From: Lawsonibacter sp.
Lineage (GTDB): Bacteria > Bacillota > Clostridia > Oscillospirales > Oscillospiraceae
Assembly: GCA_022796195.1 (NCBI GenBank)
Contig: JAAWIE010000187.1
Span: 1 to 36,734, forward strand
Direction of reading: 5' to 3'
Length of the DNA: 36,734 nucleotides
Made by a program: the position numbers and the translations under genes. The notes under the pieces were generated by a model. The model was not told where the DNA came from. It did not search any database and saw only the letters and a program-made list of their open reading frames with translations. Every line of letters begins with the position of its first letter. The first letter of the stretch is position 1. Shown one piece after another: positions 635-22,174 of the stretch.

Positions 635-697
635 CGGGTATGTTATAGAGCTGAATAAAGATAAGGAGCTGGTTGCATGAAAAGGAGGAAATTCAAA

Positions 698-1624
698 ATG
701 GATAACAAAATAGAAGTGATTGGAATCGACCACGGCTGGTCCGGCATGAAAACGGTGCATGAGGTATTTACTTCGGGCTGTAAGGAAATCAGCACGGAAC
801 CGGCCTTTACGGAGAATTTACTGGAGTATGGCGGGAAGTATTACAAGATTGGCAGCAAACGGCTTGAAGTAAAGGACACAAAGGTAACGGATGAAAATTA
901 CTACATGCTGACGCTGGCAGCGGTGGCAAAGGAACTGAAAATCAGGAGGAAGAAAACAGCCCATGTCCTTCTGGCGGTTGGGCTTCCGCTGACAAGGTTC
1001 GGGGACGAGAAGAAAGATTTTGTTTCTTACCTGTCAAAGAAAAAGGAAGTTTCCTTTACCTTTGAGAAAGAGAAGTACCATATTTTCATTGAGAATGTAT
1101 GTGTCTACCCTCAGTGTTATGCAGCGGTCATTGACCGGATTGACAAATTCCCAGAGAAACAGCTTGTGGTGGATATTGGTTCGTGGACAGTGGACATTAT
1201 GCCGATTATCAACCATCTGCCGGATGAATCGGCGTGCGTGACACAGCCGCATGGGATAATCACCTGCATACAGCAGATTAACAAGGAATGTGTGAGGCAG
1301 TTAAACGCAGAGGTGGACGAGTATGATATTCAGAAAGCTATGGTAAACGGTGGTGGGGACCTTCCGGAGAAGTATCAGGGGATTATCATTAAGGAAATCC
1401 GTGCTTACTGTCAGCAGATTTACCATAACATCAGGGAACTTGGCTACAACATGGACTTGACGCAGATTATCTTTGTGGGCGGCGGTGCCGGTGTGATGAA
1501 ACGCTTTGGTAACTTTGGGCAGGGGAATATCCAGTATATTGAGGATGTAAGGGCAAATGCGAAAGGATATGAAATGCTTGGGAATGCGTATCTGGCAAAG
1601 GCACAGAGGCGTAAGATCGGATAG
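698..1624 (+). CDS. parM: ParM/StbA-like actin-fold segregation ATPase
   Basis: Plasmid-type actin homologue, 308 aa. Three actin-fold nucleotide motifs are visible: phosphate-1 near the N-terminus (GIDHGWSGMKT), phosphate-2 (VVDIGSWTVDI, around residue 160) and the adenosine motif (FVGGGAGVMKRF, around residue 262). ParM proteins polymerise on ATP and push plasmid copies apart when capped by ParR bound to a centromere. The ATG at 698 is preferred because AAAGGAGG (679-686) sits just upstream. An in-frame ATG at 677 has a weaker AAGGAG and would add seven residues. A ParR-like gene follows 11 bp downstream, giving the usual parM-parR order. Presence on a conjugative element implies a phase as an autonomous or multi-copy circle. 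Confidence 0.85.
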   Translation: MDNKIEVIGIDHGWSGMKTVHEVFTSGCKEISTEPAFTENLLEYGGKYYKIGSKRLEVKDTKVTDENYYMLTLAAVAKELKIRRKKTAHVLLAVGLPLTRFGDEKKDFVSYLSKKKEVSFTFEKEKYHIFIENVCVYPQCYAAVIDRIDKFPEKQLVVDIGSWTVDIMPIINHLPDESACVTQPHGIITCIQQINKECVRQLNAEVDEYDIQKAMVNGGGDLPEKYQGIIIKEIRAYCQQIYHNIRELGYNMDLTQIIFVGGGAGVMKRFGNFGQGNIQYIEDVRANAKGYEMLGNAYLAKAQRRKIG

Positions 1625-1635
1625 GGGGGATTGCT

Positions 1636-2058
1636 ATGGCGAGCGGGGATTTATTCCGTGGGTTTCTGTTACGTTTCTCAATGAAAAAGGACCAGCATGT
1701 CAGGATGTTGGAGAAATTTGAGGACAATAGGCTCAATGGGGGAAAAGCCAAAACTCAGATTATTATGGACGCGCTGGAAATGTACTATCATGCTTTGAAA
1801 AGTGATGGTGGCAGCAGGGAGGATGAAACGCTTACAGTGCGGGAGATGGAGCAGAGGTTAGAACAGTTTAGACAGGAAATAAAGGAAGAGATGACACAGG
1901 AACTTTTCCGTATGATTATCAGCAGCATGGCAGGGCAGCCGTCAGTGGAATTTCCCATTAGGAAAGAGAAACAGGAGGGACCGGGGGAGGATGCGGCTGC
2001 GGACATCAGCGGGATGCCGGACATTATGGATAAGATTATGGACTGGAGCGAGAGTTAG
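1636..2058 (+). CDS. parR: ParR-like centromere-binding partner of ParM
   Basis: A 140-aa protein starting at the ATG after a GGGGGGA ribosome site. The first 55 residues look like a ribbon-helix-helix DNA-binding unit: a short strand (FLLRFSMKK), a helix (QHVRMLEKFEDNR) and a second helix (KTQIIMDALEMYYHAL). The rest is charged and helical, with an acidic tail (MPDIMDKIMDWSES) of the kind that contacts ParM filaments. ParR dimers bind arrays of short direct repeats. No such array lies immediately upstream of parM. The strongest iterated array in the window is at 10080-10298. The assignment rests on position after parM, size and fold pattern, not on a clear sequence signature. Confidence 0.65.
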   Translation: MASGDLFRGFLLRFSMKKDQHVRMLEKFEDNRLNGGKAKTQIIMDALEMYYHALKSDGGSREDETLTVREMEQRLEQFRQEIKEEMTQELFRMIISSMAGQPSVEFPIRKEKQEGPGEDAAADISGMPDIMDKIMDWSES

Positions 2059-2380: not shown

Positions 2381-2469
2381 ATGCACAAATGCCGGGGAAA
2401 TGCCCGGTATCTGTGCCGGCAGGGAATATCCGCAGGAAACAAATTACTATGTATGAATGGAGGATGTAT

Positions 2470-5400
2470 ATGACAAAAAAGAGATTGAAAAGGGTACTGG
2501 CTCTGGCAATGGCTCTTGTTCTGATGGTGGGGGCTGTCATTCCCACTGCCGCTTATGCCAATGCAACTGGACCGGGTGCGGACGTGGCAGACAGTAACGG
2601 GACCGGTCAGGCGGAGGCGGAGCGGGAACCGGTGCTTTATGATGAAAAGGACAGGCCGGATTTGGAACCGGCGGAGATTGTAACGGCAGAGGACATTATC
2701 GTGGCAGCCGGCTATGGGTTTGACGTGGAGAAGTCCTTTGACGGGATTTCTTATGATAACAAGGCGGTCAAAGTCAGCTACTATGCAGAGCAGGGTTCCT
2801 TTGACGGGAATAAGCCGGGGGATTACAGCACTTATTACAAGGCAGAGCCGGCCAGTGGCAAAACTCCTTATCTTATCTGTAGGACGGTTTCCGTGCGTGA
2901 GCCGGAAACGGCTGTGGAGGAAAGCCGGGAGTCAGGAGAGGATCAGGACGGCAGCGGGGAAGAAGAACCTGCTCCCGGAGAGGGAGAAGGAGAGGTTACC
3001 CCATCGGATGCCGATGCCGGAAAGAAAGGTGCAGAGAGCCCTTTGTCAGAAGGGGAGATGGAAACCTTTGGCACAGGCGATACCATGATGGTCCGCATGG
3101 CTTCTGCCCCGGTGTTAAAGGCAGCGGCAAAATCTTCGGACAGCATGAAGGTATCGTGCAGCGGCTATGCGAAATATTGCGGACACAGCATGGGCATCAA
3201 GTATATTTCACAATCCGGGGATTACCATAACCATCTGGTTTACTGCCTGAACCTGAACAAGAATACGACGAATGGAAACGTAGGAGCCTCCGGTTCAAAG
3301 AGCAGCATAAAGCCGGAGATTACCTTCTGTATGGTAAACGGCGCCAGGACACTGAACGGGAAATGCCACAACAGCAAGTATTCCGCAGGTTCTGCCTCAG
3401 CCGATTATTTCATTACCGGTGCGTCAATCCATGTGTTAAACGGGGAAGTGAAGTTAAGCTATTATAACAATGGCAGCAGCGTTTACAAGAAAATAGAGGC
3501 ACTGGTATCGGATGCGAAAAAATATGATGAGGACGAGTATGACGAGGCAACGGGTGTTACGAAGTCCATCACTTATAAGATTTCCCCGAAAAAGACGGAG
3601 TGGCAGGACATGGGGGACGGGCTGTACCGTTCCAAAGAGAAGTTTGTCCGCACAAAAACAGGCACGATCACCAACGTGTCCTATAAAATCACGGGGCAGC
3701 CGGGCGGGCTGACGGTAGGCGAGTTAAAAACGGATGCCAGCGACATTGAGGATGATTCCGATTTGAAGAAGTATGATATCTGCGTGGCACAGACGGATGC
3801 AGACAAGCCGTCCTCCAATTTTTACCTGTACTGCAACGGGGAGGCAATGAAAAAGATCCTGGCGGCAGACAGCACCGTTAAGCTGACGGCAACCGCAAAA
3901 TCAAAAGAAAATGGCGGCAGGAAATGGACGCCTACGGTAGTGTCACAGCAGAAGATTACCTTTCTGGAGGAGTTTGAGCCGGGGACTGTGACGGCAAGCG
4001 TCAAAGTGACCTCCAAATTTAAGGAGGGCAGGTTTGAATTAAGAAAAACGAATGTTTATAACGGAGAACCGGTGGAAGGGGCAGCGTATTATCTGTATGA
4101 GGATGCGGAGTGTACCGATTTGCTGTGCAAACTGGAAAAAACTAATGCAAAAGGTCTGGCACTTTCGGGAAAAGAGGTGTTGACACAGAGCACTTATTAC
4201 CTGAAGGAAGTGAAGGAGGCGCCGGGTTACCAGAGGGATGAAACGGTTTATCCCGTGGGACTGGAATACTTTACCCTCTATGACAGCGATGGGAAAGTGA
4301 CACAGCAGGGAAAACCTATGCCGGTTGTGGAATATCCTGATAAAGTTGGCGTCATGGTAAAAAAGACGGACTCGGAATCCGGGAATTTTGTGAAAGGAGC
4401 CGGGTTTGCGGTGTTTACGGATGCCGGCTGTACGCAGCGTGTTTCTGTTGAGGGCGACGGCAAGGCAGAAGTGCCGGTATTCTATTATGATGAGGACCTG
4501 GATGTTGCCGCCTCTGAAAAGTTTGTAAAGACGCAGGATAAATACTATGTGAAAGAGGTTGTCATCCCGGACGGCTACCGTGATGACGGCAAGGTGTGGG
4601 AAGTGGCGCCGGATTATGGGGAGATTTCCGATTTCAGTGCAGAGAATACACCAATCCGCTGTGACGTGGCAGCGAAAAAGGAGGATAAGGAAACCGGGGC
4701 AGAGCCGCAGGGGGATGCGAAACTGTCCGGGGCCACTTACGGGCTGTATGCGGCAGAAACCATTGTTTACCCGGATGGGCGTGGCACGGTCACTTATGCA
4801 GGGAATGACAACATTACCAGCACGCAGGGGACGGATTTTGTGTCAACCGGCGTGCCGGCAGAGAAGGATGCCCTGCTTGCCACGGTAAAGACCGGGGAAC
4901 AGGCAGAGTTCAATTTTGGGAACCTGTATTTTGGCAATTATTATATCCGTGAGATAGAGCCGAGTGAGGGGTATCTGCTGGATGAAACCATTTATCCGGT
5001 CAACTTCCGTGAAGCACAGGACACCCATCACGATATTTCCCTTAACACAAAGGTCATTGAGACGGTAAAGAAACAGGCCTTTGAGATTATCAAGGTGTCT
5101 ACCGACGGTGCAAGCACGGAGACGGATTATGTCAAGGGTGCGGAGTTTACCGTAAAATTACAGTCGGACATTGATAAGAATGGATGGGATAACGCCAAAA
5201 CCCATGACGTGCTTGTGACGGATGAAAAAGGCTATGCACTCTCGAAAGAGCTGCCTTATGGGAAATATCTGGTAAAGGAAACAAAGGTGCCAAAGGATTT
5301 GTATAAAACAAAGGACTTTACCGTAACGGTTACGGAGGATTCCAGGGAGCCGCAGCAGTGGCGGGTGTTCAATGACGGACCGTTCAAGGCTTATATCCGC

Positions 5401-7242
5401 ATTGTGAAAAAGGATGCGGAAAACGGAAATACCGTACTGGTCTCCGGTGTGACTTTTAAGATTAAGAATACCGATACGGATGAATATGTGGAGCAGAAGG
5501 TAGGGGATAAGAAAATCAGTGAGTTTACCACGGACGAAACCGGAACCATCACCACGCCTTTGCAACTGAAATACGGAAATTATGCGGTGGAGGAGATTAC
5601 TGCACCGGAGGGGTATGTCATTACGGAGGAGAGTTTCCCGCTGGAGGTTACCACGGACGGCATGCTGAAAGTCTCGGAAGATATCGACGGCAATCCGGTC
5701 ATTGAAGTAGTCATTGAAAACAAGCCCGTCAAGGGCAGCATTTCCATCCATAAGTCCGGGGAGGTCCTGACTTCCATTGTCTATGACACCATTGTTGACC
5801 GCATCCTCAGTGAAGTTACGGATGAAAACAGGAGTGTGGATTTTAATTATGAGGAACAGCCGCTTGCGGGGGCAGTATTTCATGTCATTGCGGTGGAGGA
5901 TATTTACACCCCGGACCACCAGACGGATGAAAACGGGAACCGCACACTGGAAGTGATCGGAGGTGTCCCGGCAAGCAAAGGGGCAATCGTTGCAACGCTT
6001 ACCACGGATGAAAAAGGGGAGGCTTCCCTTGACCACCTTCCTCTTGGGAAATATCAGGTAGTGGAGGTGCAGCCGCCAAAGGGCTTTGCCGTCTGTGAGG
6101 AGCCAAAGGAGATCAGTCTTTCCTATGAAGATGAGCATACGGAAATTGTCTATGGGGAGGCGGAGTTTGTCAATGCAAGGGTAAAACCGGGGCTGTCGTT
6201 AATCAAGACGGACAGTGTAAGCACTTACCCGGTAGCTGATGCCACTTACGGCATTTACACGAAACAAGATATTTTGGGCATTACAGGAGAAGTCCTCGTA
6301 AAAAAGGATGATTTGGTGGATACGGCTGTGACGGATGAAAACGGGAAAGCGAAATTTGAGGCGGATTTGCCGCTGGGACTGTACTATGTGAAGGAAGTGG
6401 AGTCCCCGGAGGGGTACCTGTTAGACGAAACGGTGTATGACGTTGATTTTTCCTATACGGAGGAAATGGCGGCAACACCGACAGTAACGAAAGAACTGGA
6501 AATGAAGGACACACCGATTATCGTGGAGGTGTCGAAAACGGACATTACAACAGGGAAAGAGCTGCCGGGGGCAACGCTGGAAGTTATTGATTCCGATGGG
6601 GAAGTATATGCCTCATGGAAAACGGACGGGAAACCGTACCGATTGGAGGCTATCCCGGCAGGAAAGTACACCTTGCGGGAGACGGCAGCGCCGTATGGCT
6701 ACCTGATTGCAAATGAGGTGGAATTTACGGTTGAGCAGACTGGAGAGATTCAGAAAGTTGCCATGACCGATGAAAGGGTAAAGGGAAAGATTGCCCTTTA
6801 CAAAACCTGCAGCAAAACCGGAAAGCCGTTAAAGGGCGTCACGTTTGAACTCCGGGACAAAAAGGGGAAGAAACTGGAGACGCTGGTAACGGACAAGACC
6901 GGCTATGCGGAGACAGGGCTGCTTGACATCTGCACTTATAACAAAGACGGCAGCTTTGGGGAGGATATACCGTATTATATTGTGGAGACAAAGGCGGCGG
7001 ATGGTTATATCCTTGGCGATACCCCGCATGAGGTTCTGTTACAGTATGATGACAGTGCGACGGAGACCGTGGTTTATACGTTGAAATTAAAGAATAAGCC
7101 AGACAAGCCGAGGCTGCCGCAGACGGGCGGGAACTACCACCCGTGGATGTTTATCGCTCTGGGCGGTGTCTGCATTGCCGGCGGTGTGGTTTATGGCAGG
7201 AGACGCAAGAGAAAAGTGCGTAAAGGATTTCATAAGGCATGA
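2470..7242 (+). CDS. LPxTG cell-wall adhesin with about nine SpaA/CnaB repeats
   Basis: Sortase-anchored surface protein, 1590 aa. The ATG at 2470 is chosen over an upstream in-frame ATG (2389) because GGAGG (2459-2463) and a signal peptide (MTKKRLKRVLALAMALV..., cleavage near AYA-NA) start there. Residues ~30-220 are acidic linker. Residues ~225-345 resemble a thioester (TQXA-type) domain, with Cys259 in YCLN and TGAS at 315-318. About nine SpaA/CnaB domains begin near residues 522, 627, 731, 871, 975, 1090, 1241, 1351 and 1440. Each has an N-terminal Lys strand and an E-box such as YYVKEV or YLVKET, as in isopeptide-locked folds. LPQTG at 1549 is followed by a membrane helix and a basic tail. 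No sortase gene is present, so a host enzyme is implied. Likely role: mating-pair or host-surface attachment. Confidence 0.9.
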   Translation: MTKKRLKRVLALAMALVLMVGAVIPTAAYANATGPGADVADSNGTGQAEAEREPVLYDEKDRPDLEPAEIVTAEDIIVAAGYGFDVEKSFDGISYDNKAVKVSYYAEQGSFDGNKPGDYSTYYKAEPASGKTPYLICRTVSVREPETAVEESRESGEDQDGSGEEEPAPGEGEGEVTPSDADAGKKGAESPLSEGEMETFGTGDTMMVRMASAPVLKAAAKSSDSMKVSCSGYAKYCGHSMGIKYISQSGDYHNHLVYCLNLNKNTTNGNVGASGSKSSIKPEITFCMVNGARTLNGKCHNSKYSAGSASADYFITGASIHVLNGEVKLSYYNNGSSVYKKIEALVSDAKKYDEDEYDEATGVTKSITYKISPKKTEWQDMGDGLYRSKEKFVRTKTGTITNVSYKITGQPGGLTVGELKTDASDIEDDSDLKKYDICVAQTDADKPSSNFYLYCNGEAMKKILAADSTVKLTATAKSKENGGRKWTPTVVSQQKITFLEEFEPGTVTASVKVTSKFKEGRFELRKTNVYNGEPVEGAAYYLYEDAECTDLLCKLEKTNAKGLALSGKEVLTQSTYYLKEVKEAPGYQRDETVYPVGLEYFTLYDSDGKVTQQGKPMPVVEYPDKVGVMVKKTDSESGNFVKGAGFAVFTDAGCTQRVSVEGDGKAEVPVFYYDEDLDVAASEKFVKTQDKYYVKEVVIPDGYRDDGKVWEVAPDYGEISDFSAENTPIRCDVAAKKEDKETGAEPQGDAKLSGATYGLYAAETIVYPDGRGTVTYAGNDNITSTQGTDFVSTGVPAEKDALLATVKTGEQAEFNFGNLYFGNYYIREIEPSEGYLLDETIYPVNFREAQDTHHDISLNTKVIETVKKQAFEIIKVSTDGASTETDYVKGAEFTVKLQSDIDKNGWDNAKTHDVLVTDEKGYALSKELPYGKYLVKETKVPKDLYKTKDFTVTVTEDSREPQQWRVFNDGPFKAYIRIVKKDAENGNTVLVSGVTFKIKNTDTDEYVEQKVGDKKISEFTTDETGTITTPLQLKYGNYAVEEITAPEGYVITEESFPLEVTTDGMLKVSEDIDGNPVIEVVIENKPVKGSISIHKSGEVLTSIVYDTIVDRILSEVTDENRSVDFNYEEQPLAGAVFHVIAVEDIYTPDHQTDENGNRTLEVIGGVPASKGAIVATLTTDEKGEASLDHLPLGKYQVVEVQPPKGFAVCEEPKEISLSYEDEHTEIVYGEAEFVNARVKPGLSLIKTDSVSTYPVADATYGIYTKQDILGITGEVLVKKDDLVDTAVTDENGKAKFEADLPLGLYYVKEVESPEGYLLDETVYDVDFSYTEEMAATPTVTKELEMKDTPIIVEVSKTDITTGKELPGATLEVIDSDGEVYASWKTDGKPYRLEAIPAGKYTLRETAAPYGYLIANEVEFTVEQTGEIQKVAMTDERVKGKIALYKTCSKTGKPLKGVTFELRDKKGKKLETLVTDKTGYAETGLLDICTYNKDGSFGEDIPYYIVETKAADGYILGDTPHEVLLQYDDSATETVVYTLKLKNKPDKPRLPQTGGNYHPWMFIALGGVCIAGGVVYGRRRKRKVRKGFHKA

Positions 7243-7386: not shown

Positions 7387-8391
7387 ATGATGACTTATGA
7401 GGTATTTAAGGCAGTTGTAAAAGAGAAATTTCTAAGCTATCTGCCGGAGGAATACAGGGATGCCGAAGTGAATATCCGCCCGGTAAAGAAAGTGAACCGT
7501 ACACTGGATGCTTTGTCGGTGCTGAAGGACGATTCCCGGATGTTTTCCAGCATGTATGTGAATGAATTGTATGAGCAGTACCGGGAATACGGCGATCTGG
7601 AGATGATCCTCCGGGCAGCGGCATGGAAATATACACAGTCAGCAGACATGTTTAAGGAACAGCAGTCGGAAATGTTTATGGGCATAGAGCATTTTAAGGA
7701 AAACGTAATCATGTGTCTTATCAACACGGAGCAGAACCGGGAACTGCTGGCAGGCATACCAAGCAGGGCATTTCAGGACTTATCGGTTATTTATCGGTGG
7801 GTGGTTAAGAGTTCCCCGGATGAAATGGAAAGCAGCATTGTTTCCAATGAAATGGCGAAAATAGCCGGGATGACAGAGGAAGAACTGTTCCAGTGTGCAG
7901 TGGAAAATACAAGGCGTATTAACCCGGTATCGGTAACCTGTATGGGTAGTATGTTTGGCAGTATACCGGAGGGGACCATCCTACCGCCGGAAGTCAGGGA
8001 AGAACTGGAGCTGATAAAACGTACTTCGGACAATATGTGGATTATCAGCAACAGTTCAGGAATTTACGGCGCCGTTTCCATGTTATATGAGGAAAACTTA
8101 CACCAGTTGGCGGAAAAGCTGGGAGAAAACTTTTTTATCCTGCCCTCGTCCATTCATGAGGTGATTGCTGTCCCGGTGGAAATGACGGGGAAGAATATGA
8201 CAAACCTGATAGAAATGGTACAGGAAGCGAATATGAGCAGCGTGAGGCTGGAGGAACGCCTTTCAAACAGTGTTTACCACTATGACAGGAATGCAAGGAA
8301 AGTGACGCTGGCGGCAGAATCACCGGAAAAAAGGCTGGATGGAAAACAGGCAGAGCTGCCACTGATTCAGGAAGAAAAAAAGACAAGATAG
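7387..8391 (+). CDS. DUF5688 family protein
   Basis: Protein of 334 aa preceded by AGCAGGAGG (7370-7378). The N-terminus (MTYEVFKAVVKEKFLSYLPEEYRD, shown here by its first and last residues MTYE and EYRD) followed by VNIRPVKKVNRTLDAL matches my memory of the DUF5688 family, which is common on Lachnospiraceae mobile elements. It appears soluble, with no signal peptide or membrane helix. The C-terminal part contains a long segment (NMWIISNSSGIYGAVSMLY) followed by ILPSSIHEVIAVP, typical of the family. Its molecular function is unknown. It stands between the adhesin and the RadC-primase group, separated from the adhesin by tandem hairpins and followed after 9 bp by a 41-codon gene. Confidence 0.7.
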   Translation: MMTYEVFKAVVKEKFLSYLPEEYRDAEVNIRPVKKVNRTLDALSVLKDDSRMFSSMYVNELYEQYREYGDLEMILRAAAWKYTQSADMFKEQQSEMFMGIEHFKENVIMCLINTEQNRELLAGIPSRAFQDLSVIYRWVVKSSPDEMESSIVSNEMAKIAGMTEEELFQCAVENTRRINPVSVTCMGSMFGSIPEGTILPPEVREELELIKRTSDNMWIISNSSGIYGAVSMLYEENLHQLAEKLGENFFILPSSIHEVIAVPVEMTGKNMTNLIEMVQEANMSSVRLEERLSNSVYHYDRNARKVTLAAESPEKRLDGKQAELPLIQEEKKTR

Positions 8392-8526: not shown

Positions 8527-9052
8527 TTTTGCACTGGAGGTCGTGTCCGTCCGTCTGGTCCGGGATGCCCCTATTTATTCGGAAAGTAAAATTAGAAATT
8601 CCACGGATGTGATCCATCTGGTGGGGGAACAGCTTTGTGACATGGACCGGGAGGTAGTATGCGTCATCAACCTGAAAGCGGACAATACGCCCATTAACTG
8701 CCATTTTGCCAGTGTCGGAGCTTTGGATTATTCAATGGCACATCCGAGGGAACTATTAAAAGCCGGCATCTTATCCAATGCGGGAAAGATTATTCTTGCA
8801 CACAATCACGTTTCCGGAGACCTCATTCCGTCAGAGATGGATGTGAAACTGACAGATCAGATGCAGCAGGTATGCGGGCTGGTAGGGATTCCCCTGCTGG
8901 ACCATGTGATTGTAGGCGGGGATAACAGCCGGTACTTTAGTTTCCATGAAAAGGGGCTGGTAAAAAATCCGCACAGGGAATACCAGACCGATTACCGGAA
9001 ACTGGAATGGGACAGCCCGGCGGAGGTGGCAGAGAGGGGGAGAAGTAGATGA
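8510..9052 (+). CDS. radC: RadC-like JAB/MPN domain protein
   Basis: A 180-aa protein carrying the JAMM metal motif of RadC/JAB domains: His98-x-His100 in LAHNHVSGD, then Ser108 and Asp111 in LIPSEMD. The fold extends from about residue 30 to 150 and ends in the family-typical LLDHVIVGGDNSRYFSFHEKG. It lacks the N-terminal helix-hairpin-helix of chromosomal RadC, as is usual for copies on mobile elements. The precise function of these proteins is unsettled; a role in DNA metabolism of the incoming element is often assumed. GGAGGAGGGAAAGG lies just before the ATG. Its stop overlaps the primase start by 4 bp (ATGA), so the two are translationally coupled. Confidence 0.88.
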   Translation: MGKGNDFALEVVSVRLVRDAPIYSESKIRNSTDVIHLVGEQLCDMDREVVCVINLKADNTPINCHFASVGALDYSMAHPRELLKAGILSNAGKIILAHNHVSGDLIPSEMDVKLTDQMQQVCGLVGIPLLDHVIVGGDNSRYFSFHEKGLVKNPHREYQTDYRKLEWDSPAEVAERGRSR

Positions 9053-10086
9053 GGTTTACAGCGGAGGAGCTGGGCATTGCAAAACAGGCGGACCTCTGTG
9101 CCGTGGCGGAACGCATGGGCTATACCGTAAAAAGGATTGGGCATTACCATACGCTGAAAGAAATGGATTCCATACGGATTTATGAACGGAGCCACTGGTG
9201 CCGGTTCTCAAGGCGGTATGACAAAGGGGAGAATGGCGGCAGCCAGATTGACTTCCTGCGGGTGTTTGCGGGCATGGATGTGAAAGAGGCGGTGTTCTGG
9301 CTGCTGGATTTTGTGGGGTACCGCAGGGAGGAAAGCATGAATGACAAAGCCATTCATGCTGAAGAACCGTCCGCAGGCGGACTTGCCGCAGGGCGGCATT
9401 CTTCACGGAGAGACGTTCTTCAGAATCTTGCCCCGACGGGGAAAAAAGAAGAAAAGAAGAAACCGTTTGTACTGCCGGAGTTTGCCGGGAGCAATGCTTA
9501 CCTGTACCGTTATCTGGAGTATGAGCGGGGGATTGCCCGCCCGGTCATTGACTTCTTTGTGGGAAAAGGGATTTTATATGAGGCAAAAAATTACCACAAC
9601 ATTGTCTTTGTCGGGACGGACCGGGACGGCGTGCCGAAGTTTGCCAGTATGCGGGGTGTCTTTGACAGGAATGGAAAGGGCTTTAAGTGCGACGTGGCTG
9701 GCAATGACAAGAGGTACGGTTTCCATCTGTATTATGGGAAAAGCAGGAAAGTAATAGTGTTCGAGGCGGCAATCGACCTGATGAGCTATATTACCATGTT
9801 TCCGAAAGACAGGGCGAGCATGGTGGCACTTGGGATGCTGGCGGATGCCCCTCTGGAAACCTTCCTTGCGGAACACCCGGAGATGGAGGAAATACAATTC
9901 TGTCTGGATAATGACGGACCGGGCAGGAAAGCAGCGGCAAGCCTGCAGCAGAAATATACGGAGAAGGGCTACCGGACAGATGTGTTCCTGCCGCCGGAAC
10001 CGTATAAGGACTTCAACCAGTGGAATGTGGAAATGAGAAAAGCAAAAGAGCAGAAAGAAATCCGTGAAAATGCCAGAGTGATATAG
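9049..10086 (+). CDS. DUF3991/Toprim primase-like protein
   Basis: Protein of 345 aa. Residues 1-95 form the N-terminal domain common to DUF3991 primases of conjugative elements, with DSIRIYERSHWCRFSRRYD and GGSQIDFLRVFAGM. Residues ~140-340 hold the Toprim fold: catalytic Glu239 in VIVFEAAIDLM and the DxD pair Asp287/Asp289 in CLDNDGPG. Such proteins are thought to prime complementary-strand synthesis after transfer. No helicase domain is attached. The start overlaps the RadC stop. The stop codon is part of the first GATATAG box of the repeat array that follows, so gene and array are directly joined. Confidence 0.85.
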   Translation: MRFTAEELGIAKQADLCAVAERMGYTVKRIGHYHTLKEMDSIRIYERSHWCRFSRRYDKGENGGSQIDFLRVFAGMDVKEAVFWLLDFVGYRREESMNDKAIHAEEPSAGGLAAGRHSSRRDVLQNLAPTGKKEEKKKPFVLPEFAGSNAYLYRYLEYERGIARPVIDFFVGKGILYEAKNYHNIVFVGTDRDGVPKFASMRGVFDRNGKGFKCDVAGNDKRYGFHLYYGKSRKVIVFEAAIDLMSYITMFPKDRASMVALGMLADAPLETFLAEHPEMEEIQFCLDNDGPGRKAAASLQQKYTEKGYRTDVFLPPEPYKDFNQWNVEMRKAKEQKEIRENARVI

Positions 10087-10298
10087 GAATGATATAGTCC
10101 CAGTTTTTTCAGATATAGGAAAGATATAGGATTTGGGAAAATGATATAGGAAAGATATAGGATTTGGGAAAATGATATAGGAAAGATATAGCCATCGCTC
10201 AAGGGGGGATTTTCAGAGATATAGAAAAGATATAGAAACCGAAAGAAGGATATAGGAATGATATAGGGAACGCTGGATTTGATATAGAAAAGATATAG
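10080..10298 (+). repeat. Iteron array: 14 GATATAG boxes in 7 phased pairs
   Basis: GATATAG begins at 10080, 10091, 10112, 10123, 10143, 10154, 10174, 10185, 10218, 10229, 10249, 10260, 10281 and 10292. Each pair is exactly 11 bp start-to-start with a 4-nt spacer (GAAA, GAAT or AAAA). Pair-to-pair distances are 32, 31, 31, 44, 31 and 32 bp. All boxes lie on the same strand and roughly one face of the helix. The consensus pair is GATATAGGAAAGATATAG. This is the pattern of an iterated protein-binding site: a replication iteron, a ParR centromere or a relaxosome accessory site. It directly precedes the oriT-like repeats. Confidence 0.9.
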
Positions 10299-10340
10299 TT
10301 TTCCCTATAATAAGGCATATATCCTATTTTAGTGGGGGTT

Positions 10341-10452
10341 TCAGGGGTTACTCCCCTGACCAGAAAGCCGGACCTTTGGACGGCTTGCATTTTGTGACAC
10401 AAAATGCGTATCTGGCGAAACCTTTGGGAGTGGAAAGGAGGCAAAGGTTTCG
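10341..10452 (+). other. oriT: Putative origin of transfer (oriT)
   Basis: Four inverted repeats lie in 112 bp. TCAGGGG/CCCCTGA (10341-10347/10353-10359) has a 5-nt loop. AAGCCG/CGGCTT spans 10365-10370/10381-10386. GCATTTTGTG/CACAAAATGC (10387-10396/10398-10407) is a perfect 10-bp repeat around one base. CGAAACCTTTG/CAAAGGTTTCG spans 10416-10426/10442-10452. Between the last two is GTATCTGGCG (10408-10417), which resembles the ATCCTG-type nick site that follows an inverted repeat in MOBP origins. The region is noncoding and lies upstream of mobC and the relaxase. The exact nick position is not proven. The remainder, 10453-10581, shows no further structure. Confidence 0.55.
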
Positions 10453-10581: not shown

Positions 10582-10992
10582 ATGGCTGTCAAGGCATACA
10601 ATGATGAACTGAGGGCTTTGCTGGCGGGCGTGGAATGTGTACTGGCATATGACACGGCAGCGGATTATCTGGGGCTGACGAATGGTGGCTACAGGGAAAT
10701 GGTACAGATATTTGTCAGGGAGAAACAGGATATTGAGGGGACAGAGCAGTATGTGGTGTCGTCGTTAGTGGATATTGAATCGGCAGAATGTAACGGGCTG
10801 GTATGCACTACGGTAAACAGGACCATTACAGACCTTCTGGAACAGGATGGCGACGGGCAAATTATTACGGAGAGCCTGGCAAATTATTATGAGGAACATC
10901 ATAGGAGTTTTGATGGGCTTGAGATACCGGTACACCTGCGGCAGAGATTTGAGAAGTACAGGGCATGGGCGCGGGAATATTACAGGGAATAG
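10582..10992 (+). CDS. AbiEi antitoxin-like / hypothetical protein
   Basis: The ATG at 10582 is preferred (136 aa) because GGAGGGGAGG (10564-10573) precedes it at normal spacing. In-frame TTG 10546 and ATG 10549 lack a ribosome site. The pattern resembles AbiEi-type antitoxins: an N-terminal helical part (ALLAGVECVLAYDTAADYLG) followed by NGLVCTTVNRTITDLLEQDGDG and a helical end with ESLANYYEEH. In AbiEi proteins the matching segment reads roughly 'G..vT...RTi.Dll'. No AbiEii nucleotidyltransferase toxin follows, so it is either an orphan regulator or only distantly related. It is the first gene after the oriT-like region and ends just before an intrinsic terminator. Confidence 0.5.
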   Translation: MAVKAYNDELRALLAGVECVLAYDTAADYLGLTNGGYREMVQIFVREKQDIEGTEQYVVSSLVDIESAECNGLVCTTVNRTITDLLEQDGDGQIITESLANYYEEHHRSFDGLEIPVHLRQRFEKYRAWAREYYRE

Positions 10993-11008
10993 AAAATAAA
11001 GTTGTTAT

Positions 11009-11046
11009 GGCATCAGGCTGATTATCGTCTGGTGCCTTTTATTTTT
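11009..11046 (+). terminator. Intrinsic terminator
   Basis: GGCATCAG (11009-11016) pairs with CTGGTGCC (11029-11036) over eight positions with one G-U. It is followed by TTTTATTTTT. It lies between the AbiEi-like gene and the next gene, whose ribosome site begins 14 bp downstream. Confidence 0.75.
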
Positions 11047-11076
11047 ATATGGAAAGGAACAGGAGGTGCAGGGAGC

Positions 11077-11673
11077 ATGGGAATGGATGTGTTGGAAGTA
11101 AATACGCCGGGGGAGCTGGTGTTGTGGCTCCATCTGGTACAGTCGAAAGTCAGTATGGAGCAGGACGAGGCAGAAATCATTTTGGATTATATGGCAGAGC
11201 ATGGCATGACGTTAGCAGTCCGCAATCAGGAACTGGCGGTGCTGGATGCCGGGGAGGAATCCCCGGAGTATAAGTCATATTCCATAGATGATGCCATACA
11301 CGATGTTTGTGAGTGGAACCTGGAACTGATTCAGGATATGGAGGACGGTATGAAAAATCCGGCAGACCAGAAGGAATATAATCAGTTCAGTGACGCACTT
11401 GATATTCTGAAGAAACAGGAGACAGTGCTGGATGGGCTGTATCAACAGACAAAGTATGAGCAGATGGCACAGGAGTGTGCAGTGGAGGTAATTACTCTTG
11501 CGTTCGGAGATATATCGGAAGAAATGTGGAAAAAGATAGAGGCATGCAGACAGGGCAGGACAGAAAGGACCGAAGGGAAAAAAGTAAGCAGACAGCTAGG
11601 CGGGCAGCAGGAAAGCCCGGAAGTACAGGCGGAAAAACAGCAGGAGGAAAGCAGACAGGAAAGGGGGAGGTAG
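11077..11673 (+). CDS. Hypothetical protein upstream of mobC, 198 aa
   Basis: The frame is open from 11002, but ATG 11077 is chosen because AGGAGGTG (11061-11068) precedes it at 8 nt; the region before it is terminator and leader. The product is acidic and helical. Residues 1-60 include a compact segment (GELVLWLHLVQSKVSMEQDEAEIILDY, shown by its ends GELV and ILDY). The last 35 residues are a Gln/Glu/Arg-rich, probably disordered tail. Its stop codon directly abuts the mobC ATG (TAG then ATG), implying coupled translation. I do not recognise the family. Position suggests a relaxosome accessory or a regulator of mobilisation. Confidence 0.6.
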   Translation: MGMDVLEVNTPGELVLWLHLVQSKVSMEQDEAEIILDYMAEHGMTLAVRNQELAVLDAGEESPEYKSYSIDDAIHDVCEWNLELIQDMEDGMKNPADQKEYNQFSDALDILKKQETVLDGLYQQTKYEQMAQECAVEVITLAFGDISEEMWKKIEACRQGRTERTEGKKVSRQLGGQQESPEVQAEKQQEESRQERGR

Positions 11674-11997
11674 ATGGCAAAGGAGGTTGTAAAGCATTTC
11701 CGTCTGACCGCCCATGATGCCGGCATTTTTTCGGTAAAGGCGAGAGAGGCAGGAATGAAAGAATCTGATTATTTCCGGCTGCTGATAACGCAGGAGCCGA
11801 ACGACTACCCGGAAGTGAGGCAGGGGTTAAAAGCCCTTATCAATGAAGTGAACCGGATCGGCGTCAATATCAACGAAATCGTCCATAACAATAATTCGGG
11901 GCTGTACCGGGAATCGGACAAAATCCGTCTGGTTGCCTATATGCGGAAACTGAATGAAGGAATGGAAAGGGTGGTGGCGGCTCTTGGCTATCACTAA
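11674..11997 (+). CDS. mobC: MobC-like relaxosome accessory protein
   Basis: Protein of 107 aa with a ribosome site (AAGGGGGAGG) inside the end of the previous gene. The N-terminal half looks like a ribbon-helix-helix unit (KHFRLTAHDAGIFSVKAREAGM, strand plus helix). The C-terminal half carries the MobC signature LKALINEVNRIGVNINEIVHN, where the asparagine-rich helix is characteristic. MobC proteins bind oriT and help the relaxase open the duplex around the nick. The gene overlaps the relaxase start by 14 bp. The same DNA-binding fold makes it a second candidate, besides the ParR-like protein, for reading the GATATAG array 1.4 kb upstream. Confidence 0.87.
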   Translation: MAKEVVKHFRLTAHDAGIFSVKAREAGMKESDYFRLLITQEPNDYPEVRQGLKALINEVNRIGVNINEIVHNNNSGLYRESDKIRLVAYMRKLNEGMERVVAALGYH

Positions 11998-13432
11998 GAT
12001 TCTGACCATAAATGACAGCGGCGTGAAGTTTTCGGGGAAACATCTGGAGCAGGCGGTCTCCTATATCCTTGACCGGGAGAAAACGCAGGGTGGCAGGCTG
12101 GTAACGGGGATTAACTGCCAGCCGGGGAAAGCCTACGAACAGATGGCGGCAACGAAACGGAAGTATGGAAAGACGGATAAGAGGCAGGGCTACCACCTTA
12201 TCATTTCCTTTGAGGCGGGGGAGGTAAGACCGGACACTGCTTTTGAAATTATACGGAAATTTGTTGAGGAATATCTGGGGCAGGAGTATGAGGCTGTCCT
12301 TGCCGTCCATGACAATACTGCCCACGTCCACGGGCATATCATATTTAACAGTGTAAATTACCAAAACGGCAGGAAATACCGTTATGAAAAGGGGGACTGG
12401 GCAAAAAAGATACAGCCTATTACAAACCGTCTTTGTAGAGAATACGGACTTTCTACCATAGAGATAGAGGAACACGGCAGGAAACGTAATGAGGGATATA
12501 AAGATTGGAACGAGTTCCGGGACGGGAAATTCATCTGGCGGGACATGATACAGAGGGATGTGGATGCCTGCATCATGCAGGCGGAATCCTTTGAGGAGTT
12601 CCTGGACCTTATGGTGGAAAAGGAATATGACATCAAGCAAAATAAATATCTGGCGGTAAAGCCTAAAGGGATGCAGCGGTTCTGCCGTTGCAAATCTCTG
12701 GGGGAGGATTATACGGAGGAAAGGATACGGGAGAGAATCCGGATGGAAAGTCTGGAAACCTATGCCAAAAGGAACCGTGAACAAAATCCCCACACCATAG
12801 AACCGCCGGGGGATGAGTTCTTACGCAGGACAAAGCTGACCGGCATACAGAAAACCTATTATGCGAAAATCTGTCGCCTTCGCCATCTGGAACGGCTGCC
12901 CTACAGCAAGGCATGGGAATACCGGGAGGAAATCCGGAAAATGCAGGAAGTCCATGAGAAATACCTGTTCCTTGTAAAGAATGGGATTCACTCCCTTACG
13001 GAACTGGCAGCAGCCAGGGATAACCTGAAGGAAAAAGCAGCAGAGTGCGGAAAGGAAAGGCGGGAACTGTACCGGGAGAAAAGGCAGATGGCACCGCTGT
13101 TTTCCGTGGCGGATAAAATGATGGAATTAGCCCCGGCAGAAAAAAGTTATCAGGCAGGGGATGAATTTTTTGAAAAGGAACACCTGCGGTACCGGGCATT
13201 GGAGGGGCAGTTACGGAGCGAGGGGTATTCACTGGAAGAAACAGAAATGCTCCGTAAAAAATATAAGGATAAAGGCAGCGGCATTTATGAGAGACAGCGG
13301 GAAATCAGGAAAAGGCTGAAAATGGCCGGAGAAATGATAACTGAATTTACGGAAAGCCTGGAACGGGCAAGGGACAGGCAGGAAGAAAAAACAGAACAGG
13401 AAATGAGCAGGAACAGCCGGAGTCAGGAATGA
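11984..13432 (+). CDS. mobA: MOBP-type relaxase
   Basis: DNA-nicking relaxase, 482 aa. The frame is open from ATG 11954, but TTG 11984 gives the family-typical N-terminus MAITKIL and a normal 14-bp overlap with mobC, so I prefer it. Motif I contains a likely nucleophile, Tyr27, in AVSYILDREKT. The three-histidine metal motif is HVHGHIIFN (His114, His116, His118, Asn122). Residues ~1-250 form the nuclease domain. The remainder is a basic, helical and coiled-coil region (residues ~290-480) without a primase or helicase domain. It should cleave at oriT, form a covalent 5'-phosphotyrosine and be carried through the channel by VirD4. The last codons are part of a terminator hairpin. Confidence 0.9.
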   Translation: MAITKILTINDSGVKFSGKHLEQAVSYILDREKTQGGRLVTGINCQPGKAYEQMAATKRKYGKTDKRQGYHLIISFEAGEVRPDTAFEIIRKFVEEYLGQEYEAVLAVHDNTAHVHGHIIFNSVNYQNGRKYRYEKGDWAKKIQPITNRLCREYGLSTIEIEEHGRKRNEGYKDWNEFRDGKFIWRDMIQRDVDACIMQAESFEEFLDLMVEKEYDIKQNKYLAVKPKGMQRFCRCKSLGEDYTEERIRERIRMESLETYAKRNREQNPHTIEPPGDEFLRRTKLTGIQKTYYAKICRLRHLERLPYSKAWEYREEIRKMQEVHEKYLFLVKNGIHSLTELAAARDNLKEKAAECGKERRELYREKRQMAPLFSVADKMMELAPAEKSYQAGDEFFEKEHLRYRALEGQLRSEGYSLEETEMLRKKYKDKGSGIYERQREIRKRLKMAGEMITEFTESLERARDRQEEKTEQEMSRNSRSQE

Positions 13433-13453
13433 CTTGTTGCGGGCTGTTATTTT
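13412..13453 (+). terminator. Bipartite terminator over the relaxase stop
   Basis: AACAGCC (13412-13418) pairs with GGCTGTT (13442-13448), followed by ATTTTT. Inside it AGTCA/TGACT (13421-13425/13430-13434) closes a GGAA loop. The structure overlaps the relaxase stop codon, so translation could modulate it. Confidence 0.55.
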
Positions 13454-13489
13454 TATGGGCAGAGAATATATGAATGGAGGGCATGGCAG

Positions 13490-13858
13490 ATGGCAGAAAT
13501 AACTTTTTATGCGGCGGAGTGTATGGAGTTTCCGGAACAGATGGGGGAACTGCATGAAAACCTGGCGCTGTCAGAGGCAGTGGACGTGTATATGTGGATT
13601 TGCAGGAGGGGCAGGCCATATGGACCGGGAATCGGTTTTGTGTTGCAGGATGAAAGTATCCCGGATTATTCCGGCACCAAATGGCCGTTATATCAGGGCA
13701 GGGGGATTGCACAGGAGATGATTGACTTAATTCCTGCATACAGGGACCACCCTCTGGTAAAACAGGCAGTGGAGGATATGAAACCCTATTTGGAAAAGCT
13801 GGAGGGGGATAGAAAGGAAGAGCGCGGCATGGAACGCACCAGAGGAATGAGGAGATGA
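13490..13858 (+). CDS. Hypothetical protein, 122 aa
   Basis: The ATG at 13490 follows GGAGG (13476-13480). The sequence begins EITFYAAECMEFPEQMGE, then contains SEAVDVYMWI, GIGFVLQDES and HPLVKQAVEDMKPYLEKL. This pattern resembles a module that I associate with small stand-alone proteins and with parts of large polyvalent proteins on clostridial conjugative elements, but I cannot give it a reliable family name. There is no membrane segment. The C-terminal 15 residues are Arg/Glu-rich. It lies between the relaxase and a coiled-coil gene. The following 13859-13960 is noncoding, with one imperfect hairpin (TGGAATGCCG...CGGCA...TTCCA, 13869-13901). Confidence 0.6.
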   Translation: MAEITFYAAECMEFPEQMGELHENLALSEAVDVYMWICRRGRPYGPGIGFVLQDESIPDYSGTKWPLYQGRGIAQEMIDLIPAYRDHPLVKQAVEDMKPYLEKLEGDRKEERGMERTRGMRR

Positions 13859-13960
13859 CGGCTTTTGCTGGAATGCCGAGAGAACGGCAGGGAAGATTCC
13901 ATAGAAGAATCACCCAATGAATTGCAGTAAATAAGAAAAAACAGGAAAGTGAGGCAGGAT

Positions 13961-15157
13961 ATGGAGACAAGGAAACCGGAAAATGCGCAGGTTGCGGCTG
14001 CTGTAAGGGATTTTACCCAAAAGGGATGCAGGGATGACGTGCTGCGGATTGCAAAAGAAGATTTGGGGCTTGGCTATCCAAAAGAGCTGGCTGCCCTTTA
14101 TGCGGAATCAGGATGGCAGGTGGACCGATGTAAGAAATTTTCTTCCATTATGCGGGCGGACAGTGACAGGGAGCTGCTGCAGATGCTGGCGGATGGCGGG
14201 TTCAATCCCTACCAGATGCAGCTACTGGCAAATTATTATGGGAAAGGCGTGCCTGTGGCGCAGCTGCGGGATGTGGGTGCAAAGAACCTGACCGCTTACG
14301 ACATGGAGCAGGCATTAAAACGGATATATCAGGCAAACCGGGAGACGGAAACGGAAAAAGCAGGGGAAAGCCCGGAGAGTAAAGACTGGCAGGAGAAAAT
14401 TGTGTCTTTGACGGAGGAACTCAGGCAGCGGGAAAAGGAGCTGGAGGAGCAGCAGGAAATCAATAATAAACAGGCGTCAGAGAGTGCCGGACTCCGCATA
14501 AAAGCGGAGGACCTGGAAAAACAGGTAAGGGAACTGGAACAGGAGAAAGCAGGCTATGACAGTGAAAAGCGTTCCATTCTGGAGGAACGGGACCGTTTCT
14601 ATCAGCAGAGCCAGGTGCTTATGAGAGAAAAGGAACAGTTGATTGCCGACATTGAGGAAGTCCAGAAAGAAAAAGATGAGATGGGGCAGAGGTTAAAAGA
14701 GATGGAAAGTAAGGTTTTGACGGGGACAGTGGAAACACAGGCAGCAGGACAGGCCAGAAGCGGGCAGCAGACGGCAGGGGAACAGACGGTTGCCGGCGGA
14801 TCGGAAATAACAGCAGGACGGCAGATGGCAGAGCCTGCCGGGAGTGATTATTTTGCCGCTATCAGGGGCAGGAACGGGGAAAGGCACCTTGTTCCAGTGG
14901 AGAGAAGTGTGCGGAGAAAGCCGGACGGGCTGAAAGTCTTTGCGGAAAAATTATTTGGCAGGGGCAGACAGGATTCCGGGCTGATAAAGCAGCTTACCGG
15001 GAAAGGCTTAAACCCTGCACAGATGGAACAGGTCAGGATGGCGGTACAGGCAGGGCTTACGGAAAAGGAAGTGAACGACCTGATTGACAGCGGTTTCAGT
15101 GCGGAGGAAATGGCACAGGCGGTGGAAATCGTGGTTGCGGAAAAGGCATACCAGTAA
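13961..15157 (+). CDS. Coiled-coil protein with repeated helical ends
   Basis: Protein of 398 aa. The ATG at 13961 is preferred (GAGG at 13951-13954); an in-frame GTG at 13949 is possible. Residues ~125-255 are a long charged coiled coil rich in Glu, Lys and Gln. It is flanked by two related helical units. Near residue 75 these read GGFNPYQMQLLANYYGKGV, and near residue 347 they read GKGLNPAQMEQVRMAVQAG, each followed by a second helix with a MEQA/MAQA pattern. I do not recognise the family. The position between relaxase and PcfB-like gene suggests a cytosolic relaxosome or coupling scaffold; this is inference. Confidence 0.65.
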   Translation: METRKPENAQVAAAVRDFTQKGCRDDVLRIAKEDLGLGYPKELAALYAESGWQVDRCKKFSSIMRADSDRELLQMLADGGFNPYQMQLLANYYGKGVPVAQLRDVGAKNLTAYDMEQALKRIYQANRETETEKAGESPESKDWQEKIVSLTEELRQREKELEEQQEINNKQASESAGLRIKAEDLEKQVRELEQEKAGYDSEKRSILEERDRFYQQSQVLMREKEQLIADIEEVQKEKDEMGQRLKEMESKVLTGTVETQAAGQARSGQQTAGEQTVAGGSEITAGRQMAEPAGSDYFAAIRGRNGERHLVPVERSVRRKPDGLKVFAEKLFGRGRQDSGLIKQLTGKGLNPAQMEQVRMAVQAGLTEKEVNDLIDSGFSAEEMAQAVEIVVAEKAYQ

Positions 15158-19979: not shown

Positions 19980-20171
19980 ATGGGAAAAAGTAATAAGGTG
20001 TGCCCAAACTGCGGAAGAAAAATGAAACAGCAGTTTATCGGTTTGCAGCACTGTAAATGTGGGATAAGCTGGAAGAAAGGTTCCGGCTTTTTTGAGAGGG
20101 ATTCCGATATGGTCTTTGCATTGGAGAAAAATGCAAATGGCAGACAGAACCCGGTTATCCGGCACAAATAA
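19980..20171 (+). CDS. Small zinc-ribbon protein, 63 aa
   Basis: A 63-residue protein preceded by GGGGGCGG seven bases before the ATG. CPNCG (Cys8, Cys11) and HCKCG (Cys25, Cys27) can hold one zinc ion in a zinc-ribbon knuckle. The remainder is basic and unstructured-looking, suggesting nucleic acid or protein binding. It lies after the reductase and before an intrinsic terminator, closing the cargo segment. A 12-bp direct repeat (AAAGGGGGCGGT, 19962-19973 and 20240-20251) brackets the gene and its terminator, which may mark a duplication or insertion scar. Confidence 0.6.
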   Translation: MGKSNKVCPNCGRKMKQQFIGLQHCKCGISWKKGSGFFERDSDMVFALEKNANGRQNPVIRHK

Positions 20172-20190
20172 AATAATGAACTGTAAATAT

Positions 20191-20226
20191 GACATCAGCT
20201 ATTGATTCAGGTTGGTGTCTTTTTTT
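20191..20226 (+). terminator. Intrinsic terminator closing the cargo segment
   Basis: GACATCAGC (20191-20199) pairs with GTTGGTGTC (20211-20219) over nine positions with two G-U pairs. Seven T follow directly. Confidence 0.75.
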
Positions 20227-20264
20227 GTGTCAAAACAGGAAAGGGGGCGGTTAAAGCATAACGC

Positions 20265-20403
20265 ACCGGGGAAAGCCCGGTTTCATGTAGCAGCGGGAGC
20301 AGTCCCGAAAAGATAAAGAAAAGCAGATGTGGATGGACTTGTTTCATCGGACGGAGATAAAAGCCGTGGATGGAAGAAGTCTGTCCGCATTTTTTGTCTC
20401 CGT
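20265..20403 (+). ncRNA. Structured RNA leader upstream of the Maff2 gene
   Basis: Three hairpins follow one another. ACCGGG/CCCGGT (20265-20270/20276-20281) has a GAAAG loop. CGGGA/TCCCG (20294-20298/20303-20307) has a GCAG loop. The third is a long composite stem: 20327-20340 with 20377-20390 (14 pairs), 20342-20348 with 20369-20375 (7 pairs) and ACGG/CCGT inside, followed by a T-run. ACGGAGA (20351-20357) is also complementary to TCTCCGT (20397-20403), followed by TTATTTTT, an alternative that cannot coexist with the intact long stem. It resembles a cis-acting attenuator or riboswitch; I matched it to no known class. Confidence 0.55.
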
Positions 20404-20424
20404 TATTTTTAAGGAAAAGGAAAA

Positions 20425-20508
20425 ATGCGACCTACGTTCGCAATGCAAGTTTGTGCCTGCGCTGCGGCACTAACTTTTGCAGCAAAGAGCAGCGCAGAAA
20501 AGAGGTAA
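20425..20508 (+). CDS. Putative 27-residue leader peptide
   Basis: Open frame ATG 20425 to TAA 20506-20508, with AAGGAAAAGG just upstream, encoding a 27-residue Ala/Cys-rich peptide. It ends 3 bp before the Maff2 ATG. Within it, CTGCGCTGC (20457-20465) and GCAGCGCAG (20489-20497) form a perfect 9-bp stem just before the Maff2 ribosome site (AGAGG, 20501-20505). Translation of the peptide would open this stem, so it looks like a translational-coupling leader. Expression is unproven. Confidence 0.4.
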   Translation: MRPTFAMQVCACAAALTFAAKSSAEKR

Positions 20509-20511
20509 GCA

Positions 20512-20865
20512 ATGATGAGAAACAACACAGGTAAGAAGAAACAAAACAAAATCGCCGGTTTCTGCAAAAGGGTTCTGGTTCCGTCCTTTACCGGGGCGGT
20601 GTATGCCATGTCGCAGATGACAGTGACGGCTTTTGCGGCAGGCGGCGACACCAGTGCGGTAACGAAACCGCTTGATAACTTAAAGACGTTAGTGATTGCG
20701 GTAATCGGGGCGGTGGGCGTCATTATCCTTGCAAAGAATGTCATGGAGTTTGCACAGGCATACCAGCAGCAGGATTCCTCTACCATGAACTCCGCACTGA
20801 AAGGAATTGTGGCAGGCGCGATGATGGCGGGGATTTCCTCCGTGCTGACGTTCTTAGGATTTTAA
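20512..20865 (+). CDS. Maff2-family pilin-like membrane protein
   Basis: Protein of 117 aa (ATG 20512, or 20515) with AGAGG upstream. A basic N-terminus and hydrophobic stretch end in VTAFA-AGG, a likely signal peptide. The mature part has two membrane helices, LVIAVIGAVGVIILAKNVM and IVAGAMMAGISSVLTFLGF, joined by a polar turn rich in Gln and Ser. This is VirB2-like topology, and the sequence matches my memory of the Maff2 family found beside VirB6 and VirB4 on Clostridia conjugative elements. It probably forms the extracellular or transmembrane conduit. It is preceded by the structured leader and leader peptide, suggesting that its level is specially controlled. Confidence 0.82.
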   Translation: MMRNNTGKKKQNKIAGFCKRVLVPSFTGAVYAMSQMTVTAFAAGGDTSAVTKPLDNLKTLVIAVIGAVGVIILAKNVMEFAQAYQQQDSSTMNSALKGIVAGAMMAGISSVLTFLGF

Positions 20866-20888
20866 CAGTGGAAATGGGGTGACTTGAA

Positions 20889-21731: not shown

Positions 21732-21733
21732 AA

Positions 21734-22174
21734 ATGGGGAATTGGATGAAAAAACAGTTGGAAATGGAAAGCCGTTTTTCGGGGAAGGTAACGCTGGAAC
21801 TGGAAATCAATTCGTATATGGATAATAACAGATTGTATATCGGCCTGGTGGAAGTGGGCGGGGAATACCCGGAACCCTTTGCGGATTTGACGGTAAATAT
21901 CAGTGCGCCATGCCCGGATTACTGCGGATATGTTGACACCAACAACTGCCCGGAACTGGAGAGGTTCATTGAGAAACACGGGCTTGGGGAATTTACCGGG
22001 CTGATGGGCGGCAGCGGTTTCTGTTCTTATCCGTTGTATCTGTTTAACCCGGAAAAGCTGCGTGAGGCAGCCCCGGAGGATATGGAACTGTTTGAACGGA
22101 CGGTAATGGGAATAACACCGGAAAGGGCGCAGGGAATAAGCAGGCAGCAGAAACAGCCGGAAAAGGCAAGGTAA
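21734..22174 (+). CDS. DUF4313 family protein
   Basis: Soluble protein of 146 aa starting 2 bp after the VirB6-like stop. The sequence reads as a beta-rich domain: YMDNNRLYIGLVEVGGEYPE, PFADLTVNISAPCPDYCGYV, DTNNCPELERFIEKHGLGE, then a Gly-rich SGFCSYPLYLFNPEKL. This agrees with my memory of DUF4313, a small family found almost only on Firmicutes conjugative elements. Its function is unknown. The tight spacing within the channel operon suggests a cytosolic accessory of transfer. The last ~25 residues are Gln/Arg-rich and probably flexible. Confidence 0.7.
   Translation: MGNWMKKQLEMESRFSGKVTLELEINSYMDNNRLYIGLVEVGGEYPEPFADLTVNISAPCPDYCGYVDTNNCPELERFIEKHGLGEFTGLMGGSGFCSYPLYLFNPEKLREAAPEDMELFERTVMGITPERAQGISRQQKQPEKAR

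Follow-up and report, generated by a model that had tools for sequence, protein, structure and literature searches.

Between the primase gene and the mobilisation genes of a Lawsonibacter element lies a row of short, evenly spaced repeats, which raises the question of which protein reads them and for what function. The initial annotation had offered a ParR centromere, replication iterons or a relaxosome site, with ParR, MobC or the primase as possible readers. We analysed the whole stretch of DNA on which the element is found, one entire 36.7-kb contig of a 197-contig genome (referred to here as the window), together with related loci (numbered L013 to L073). From sequence comparison, we consider it likely that a type II ParM/ParR-like partition system encoded by the element itself uses the array as its parC centromere. 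The array is about 8 kb away from parMR, flanked by the primase on one side and a putative oriT on the other.

The array is composed of exact GATATAG boxes on the + strand, starting at positions 10080, 10091, 10112, 10123, 10143, 10154, 10174, 10185, 10218, 10229, 10249, 10260, 10281 and 10292. They form seven copies of a 19-nt pair with 11 bp from start to start within every pair, and the pairs follow one another at spacings of 32, 31, 31, 44, 31 and 32 bp. The computed positions thus bear out the description in the initial annotation of 14 boxes in seven pairs of a single orientation, with an 11-bp phase, a recurrence of 31-32 bp and one 44-bp gap. None of 2000 shuffled versions of the 245-bp segment, with dinucleotide composition preserved, contained more than 3 boxes or 1 pair. 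The best-fit period of 10.58 bp, with a phase coherence of R = 0.95, places the boxes on one face of the helix, confirming the helical phasing proposed before, and the primase ORF ends at 10086, so that its TAG stop lies, as had been noted, inside box 1. A control in which the sequence is read backwards is uninformative for this array, as GATATAG is identical when reversed. A tandem-repeat search of the window returned the array as its sole row, and the exact pair occurs seven times in its own genome, every time in this array; likewise, no paired-box pattern was detected outside the array, including upstream of parM, on either strand of the window and of L014-L024. The spacer between the two clusters contains no terminator-like hairpin by scan in the window, while L018 and L024 each carry one inside their long inter-cluster spacer (11040-11057 in both).

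Table 1. Features of the window that bear on the array, in the order of their coordinates.
Feature	Position	Strand	Basis or remark
ParM-like actin-family ATPase	677..1624	+	ALP_N, MreB-like_C; nearest solved sequence Alp12
ParR-like adaptor, 140 aa, proposed array reader	1636..2058	+	directly downstream of parM
DUF3991/TOPRIM primase, stop codon in box 1	9049..10086	+	
Array of 14 GATATAG boxes in 7 pairs, proposed ParR-binding centromere (parC)	10080..10298	+	sequence
First cluster, 4 pairs 31-32 bp apart	10080..10191	+	
Long spacer between clusters, pair spacing 44 bp	10192..10217	+	
Second cluster, 3 pairs	10218..10298	+	
Putative oriT block: CAGGGG..CCCCTG hairpin, 10-bp inverted repeat GCATTTTGTG/CACAAAATGC, then GTATCTGGC	10334..10416	+	read from sequence
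MobC/NikA-like relaxosome protein, tested as rival reader	11674..11997	+	
MobA/VirD2-family relaxase	11954..13432	+	

The genes around the array (Table 1) run in the order parM, the 140-aa ORF, a SpaA-type surface protein, RadC and the primase, and behind the array follow the putative oriT block, MobC/NikA, the relaxase, the coupling protein and T4SS genes; the last three are the reason why we refer to the element as an ICE. The ParM-like ORF matches ALP_N (1.9e-11) and MreB-like_C (1.9e-6), each above the curated cut-off, and Alp12 among PDB sequences (2.3e-7); it also matches the ParM family NF010498 at 1.6e-9, yet far below the curated cut-off of that family. The order of parM followed by parR is kept in the relatives where both genes were found. 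The block behind the array resembles the block at the same place in relatives, and by position and conservation we take it to be a putative oriT with a presumed nick site. The loci for the comparison of this block were chosen by the motif GCGTATCT[AGT]GC, of which the window row matched a chance occurrence inside parM, and the invariance of this motif is therefore partly a product of the selection. Elsewhere in the window, the surface protein between parR and the primase (2389-7242, 1617 aa) has a weak LPXTG anchor match, and 16 of the 18 fetched loci gave a match to a relative of it, L021 and L025 being short contigs. A DUF5688 gene (7387-8391) is highly variable among otherwise close relatives (34-94% identity), and its variation is not in step with the box. 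A C5 cytosine methylase ORF (23423-24246) matches the first half of the Pfam model only, overlaps a second small ORF and looks truncated.

A search of genome contigs with the primase yielded 18 loci (L014-L031), and by reading, an array lies between the primase stop and an oriT-like block in all 18, with boxes that differ between loci (GATATAG, GGTGTAG or inverted-repeat units). Eleven of them (L014-L024) carry direct GATATAG-like or GGTGTAG-like boxes at spacings of 11, 20-22 or 31-33 bp, corresponding to about one, two and three helical turns, the exceptions being a 43-bp spacing in L021 and, in L014 and L022, a single trailing match each that lies beyond the array. The number of boxes is 12 in six of these eleven loci (L015, L017, L018, L021, L023 and L024) and 17-18 in L016, L019 and L020. 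The array of L014 is split by an insertion of about 3.6 kb (10960-14677 of that locus). The remaining seven loci (L025-L031) have other units, often inverted repeats; in each of these seven and in L032 and L040 (9/9), autocorrelation places a lag of 31-33 bp within its top six. L027 and L032 clearly show two groups of three units, the search pattern caught five units in each of L025, L026 and L040 and two each in L028 and L029, and the arrays of L030 and L031 are the least regular. An array is still present in L040, with a primase of 57% identity, and behind seven more distant primases (27-41% identity; L038, L041-L046) none was found by reading 600 bases. The initial annotation had made its proposal depend on the presence of the array in close relatives, and here the outcome is divided: among 300 family genomes, the exact three-box pattern was found in its own alone, whereas an array with another box is found in every one of the primase relatives. 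What has changed in the relatives is the box, while the array was kept. One further match to the exact three-box pattern is on a viral contig (L013). Genome searches at strict cut-offs with the primase or relaxase gave 4/400, 2/394 and 1/291 genomes, the own genome included each time.

Of all the genes open to comparison, ParR alone changes in step with the sequence of the array. Outside parR and the array, which are 9.9 kb apart, L027 and L029 share about 98% identity over 16.6 kb: 8 of 166 bins of 100 bp fall below 90% identity and coincide with parR (501-1000) and the array (10901-11200), the rest having a median of 98%. The boxes are built of GTGAGTC/GACGCAC arms in L027 and of GGCTCC/GGAGTACC in L029. 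ParR is 61% identical between the two, as compared to 97% for ParM, 100% for RadC, 95% for the primase, 99% for both MobC and the relaxase and 100% over the visible part of T4CP, where the comparison ends, so that a second co-switching gene beyond it is possible for this pair. L028 and L029, with 89% identity in MobC, have a common box (array similarity 0.92) and 99% identical ParR. The pair L027/L028 is less clean, since six of the 14 bins (out of 163) below 90% identity lie outside parR and the array.

The same association appears when loci with GATATAG boxes (the window, L014 and L015) are compared with those with GGTGTAG boxes (up to 6 loci) over the 24 informative of 29 ORFs; for the later T4SS ORFs, the comparison can be as small as 2 loci against 2 to 5. 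In ParR, 32 of 139 columns (23%) separate the groups, a count of non-independent events, as the two box groups may be clades, while the other 23 informative ORFs reach at most 4.8% (highest count 14/289). MobC (0/107), ParM (0/312; 85-97% identity between the groups) and T4CP (0/413) have no separating column, and the relaxase (1/477, 0.2%) and the primase (1/332, 0.3%) have one each. The window itself groups with L015 in ParR and box, and with L016 in most of its backbone, MobC excepted: its backbone is closer to L016 (mean 93%) than to L015 (91%), with the order reversed in MobC (95% against 97%), and ParR (51% to L016, 64% to L015) and array similarity (0.16 and 0.83, respectively) go with L015. 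A partial Mantel test over 15 loci gave rank correlations with array similarity of 0.36 for the primase, 0.31 for ParR and 0.23 for RadC and leaves ParR and the primase undistinguished; a previous run with 13 loci, for which the arrays of L023 and L024 had not yet been trimmed, had ParR in the lead with 0.66, followed by T4CP (0.54) and orf402 (0.47). The linkage of the primase to the array may stem from the physical overlap of its end with box 1.

By this covariation, the array is probably cognate to the ParR adaptor. Within a short stretch of the N-terminal segment of ParR, residues 9 and 11 switch with the box from G/[LP] to [HNQ]/[ST], while R13 is kept in both groups; we take the spacing of these two residues to match that of the DNA-contacting residues in Arc-type ribbon-helix-helix proteins. 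Between L027 and L029, the C-terminal tail is identical in 25 of 26 positions as opposed to 17 of 60 in residues 59-118, a pattern that would fit a tail in contact with the conserved ParM. The window ParR matches no family in Pfam, NCBIfam or the PDB sequences, and a Foldseek search with its model returned no match at E 0.001 or better. The AlphaFold models are poor (pLDDT 53.6 for the window ParR, with helices at 19-29 and 39-56, and 58.4 for that of L031) and, lacking any strand in either case, do not support the ribbon-helix-helix fold that the adaptor may have. A profile comparison of ParR with MobC revealed no relation (probability 0.3%). In the proposed mechanism, ParR dimers would bind the 7-bp boxes directly, two dimers per pair, one helical turn apart and on one face of the DNA. 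The resulting wrapped assembly would be curved, and the C-terminal tails of ParR would engage ParM filaments, which could then part copies of the excised element at division.

Genomes that harbour more than one such element provide a further view on the boxes. A 13-mer oriT search hit 25 places in 14 genomes, 14 known loci and 11 new ones. The new loci comprise three elements with array and ParMR (L063, L065 and L070), one with array and primase but no ParMR in about 35 kb (L068, with L073), two array remnants without primase (L061 and L071), two oriT-like places without a clear array (L062 and L064, the latter possibly holding a decayed one) and three that look like chance matches (L066, L067 and L069). 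Where two copies with array and ParMR reside in one genome, their boxes differ by reading in all three cases (L018/L063, L017/L065 and L030/L070), which in this small sample fits incompatibility groups. The remnant L071, which has neither primase nor ParMR nearby, carries GATATAG boxes like its co-resident L014, and this common box counts against strict exclusivity. In the Enterococcus plasmid pEG81-1 (L032), a fragment consisting of primase, array, MobC and relaxase lies between fexA and optrA (about 19989-23766), and the gene order is the same in pEF7150-3 (L047), the array having been read in L032 only. No ParM or ParR was found among the + strand ORFs of L032, and none of the 23 plasmid records matching the window ParM is from Enterococcus.

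Segregation is the function we favour, with control of transfer as its main rival. According to the latter, ParR would read the array mainly for transfer, either to regulate the mobilisation genes from an operator or to load the relaxosome beside oriT, and segregation would be secondary or absent. The array abuts the oriT-like block in 18 relatives, paired boxes are absent upstream of parM, and both StbA/stbDRs of R388 (PMC3098194) and ParM/ParR of R1 (PMC4949242) influence conjugation, all of which agrees with such a role. The conservation of ParM and of the ParR tail while the remainder of ParR varies fits segregation instead, and promoter-like sites near the array number 4 as compared to 2.6 +/- 1.6 in shuffles; we judge transfer as the main function to be rather unlikely, while a second role of the array in conjugation is plausible.

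The other explanations replace ParR as the reader or dispense with a reader altogether. Binding by MobC (NikA-like) or the relaxase within the relaxosome would suit an array that adjoins the oriT-like block and the mobC-relaxase genes and that stays with the mobilisation module in the Enterococcus plasmid; it is very improbable given the near absence of separating columns in both proteins and a MobC that hardly changes between L027 and L029 despite their different boxes. Slightly less probable still is a role as replication iterons, with the primase or an unseen initiator as reader, to which the overlap of box 1 with the primase stop and the partial rank correlation of the primase would point: the primase likewise stays nearly constant across the box switch, no initiator family appeared in Pfam scans of 30 ORFs of the window, the contig being partial, and the distant primases have no such array behind them. 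Among the readers named in the initial annotation, covariation thus favours ParR and disfavours MobC and the primase, as it does the relaxase. A tandem repeat without function could account for the differing copy number among relatives, and we give this almost no credence, as place and helical spacing persist while the sequence changes in step with ParR.

With the array read as the ParR centromere, the ParM/ParR system in a family of ICE-like elements from gut Clostridia appears to be split, its centromere set against oriT, and to come in many natural pairings of ParR and box. L027/L029 and the GATATAG/GGTGTAG loci would then represent natural specificity swaps, in which DNA reading by ParR, the coupling of partition to transfer and incompatibility by box type could be studied. 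More tentatively, one ParR-bound site might serve both routes of inheritance, ParM/ParR segregating the excised element and also bringing the adjacent oriT to the conjugation channel; matched alleles of parR and array, exchanged together though 8-10 kb apart, would define incompatibility groups that let several related ICEs share one cell.

The sequence before parM was also read in relatives of varying distance. In L022-L024, a coding stretch appears by eye to precede parM, which we take to be of a ParB-like family. Two clostridial elements with ParM of 38-39% identity (L041 and L042) have an apparent coding sequence right upstream of parM, so that their centromere may also be elsewhere. In pRUMAL02 of R. 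albus, a ParM/ParR-like pair lies directly before mobC, and TTGACA-like repeats are seen by eye upstream of parM, where an autocorrelation scan gave no strong signal; the usual place of the centromere may thus exist in a distant relative.

ParMRC partition itself is known, and the array is most likely a ParM/ParR centromere detached from its operon and located beside oriT. No published description of the array was among the papers listed under the topics of ParM/ParR centromeres in such ICEs and of DUF3991 with a relaxase or repeats, in a literature search that covered mainly openly accessible papers. The usual site of parC in type II systems is upstream of parM (PMC9426499, PMC5016525), whereas the array lies 8 kb downstream of parR. 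With the ParMRC systems of R1 and pSK41 the present system shares an actin-like ATPase, an adaptor gene behind it and tandem iterons, and parC of R1 likewise has 11-bp repeats in two separate regions (PMC9426499, PMC5016525). It differs from them in that their parC is upstream of parM and not about 8 kb off beside a putative oriT, in the grouping of boxes into pairs every 31-32 bp and in an adaptor that matches no PDB sequence. In the pSK41 complex, one turn holds 12 ParR dimers (PMC5016525), a number equal to the most frequent box count among the direct-box relatives, which may be coincidence.

On SXT/R391, srpMRC is also a ParMR-type system on an ICE, presented as the first known case of partition stabilising a family of ICEs, and its centromere is in the intergenic region of oriT; srpC, however, adjoins srpM (PMC4489591), and the likeness concerns the layout. 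The stbDRs of R388, which form two sets of five repeats, each 9 bp long and 2 nt from the next (an 11-bp period), are near oriT and act on both stability and transfer, but the ATPase StbB is Walker-type and not actin-like, and the repeats are at the promoter of their own operon (PMC3098194). A link between partition proteins and transfer is also known from R1, where ParM/ParR stimulate the relaxase (PMC4949242), and from NAH7, whose ParR is a homologue of KorA that binds to the oriT region (PMC12421886). The pCW3-like ParMRC systems of C. perfringens resemble the present one in having ParR/parC specificity families in otherwise similar conjugative elements, and their ParR_B sites consist of two 8-bp repeats 3 bp apart, that is, in an 11-bp phase (PMC9426499). 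There, the specificity of ParR and parC determines plasmid incompatibility, parC is upstream of parM, and ParM differs as well (15-54% identity between families) (PMC9426499), unlike the ParM of the elements described here, which is 85-97% identical between box groups and 97% identical across the L027/L029 switch.
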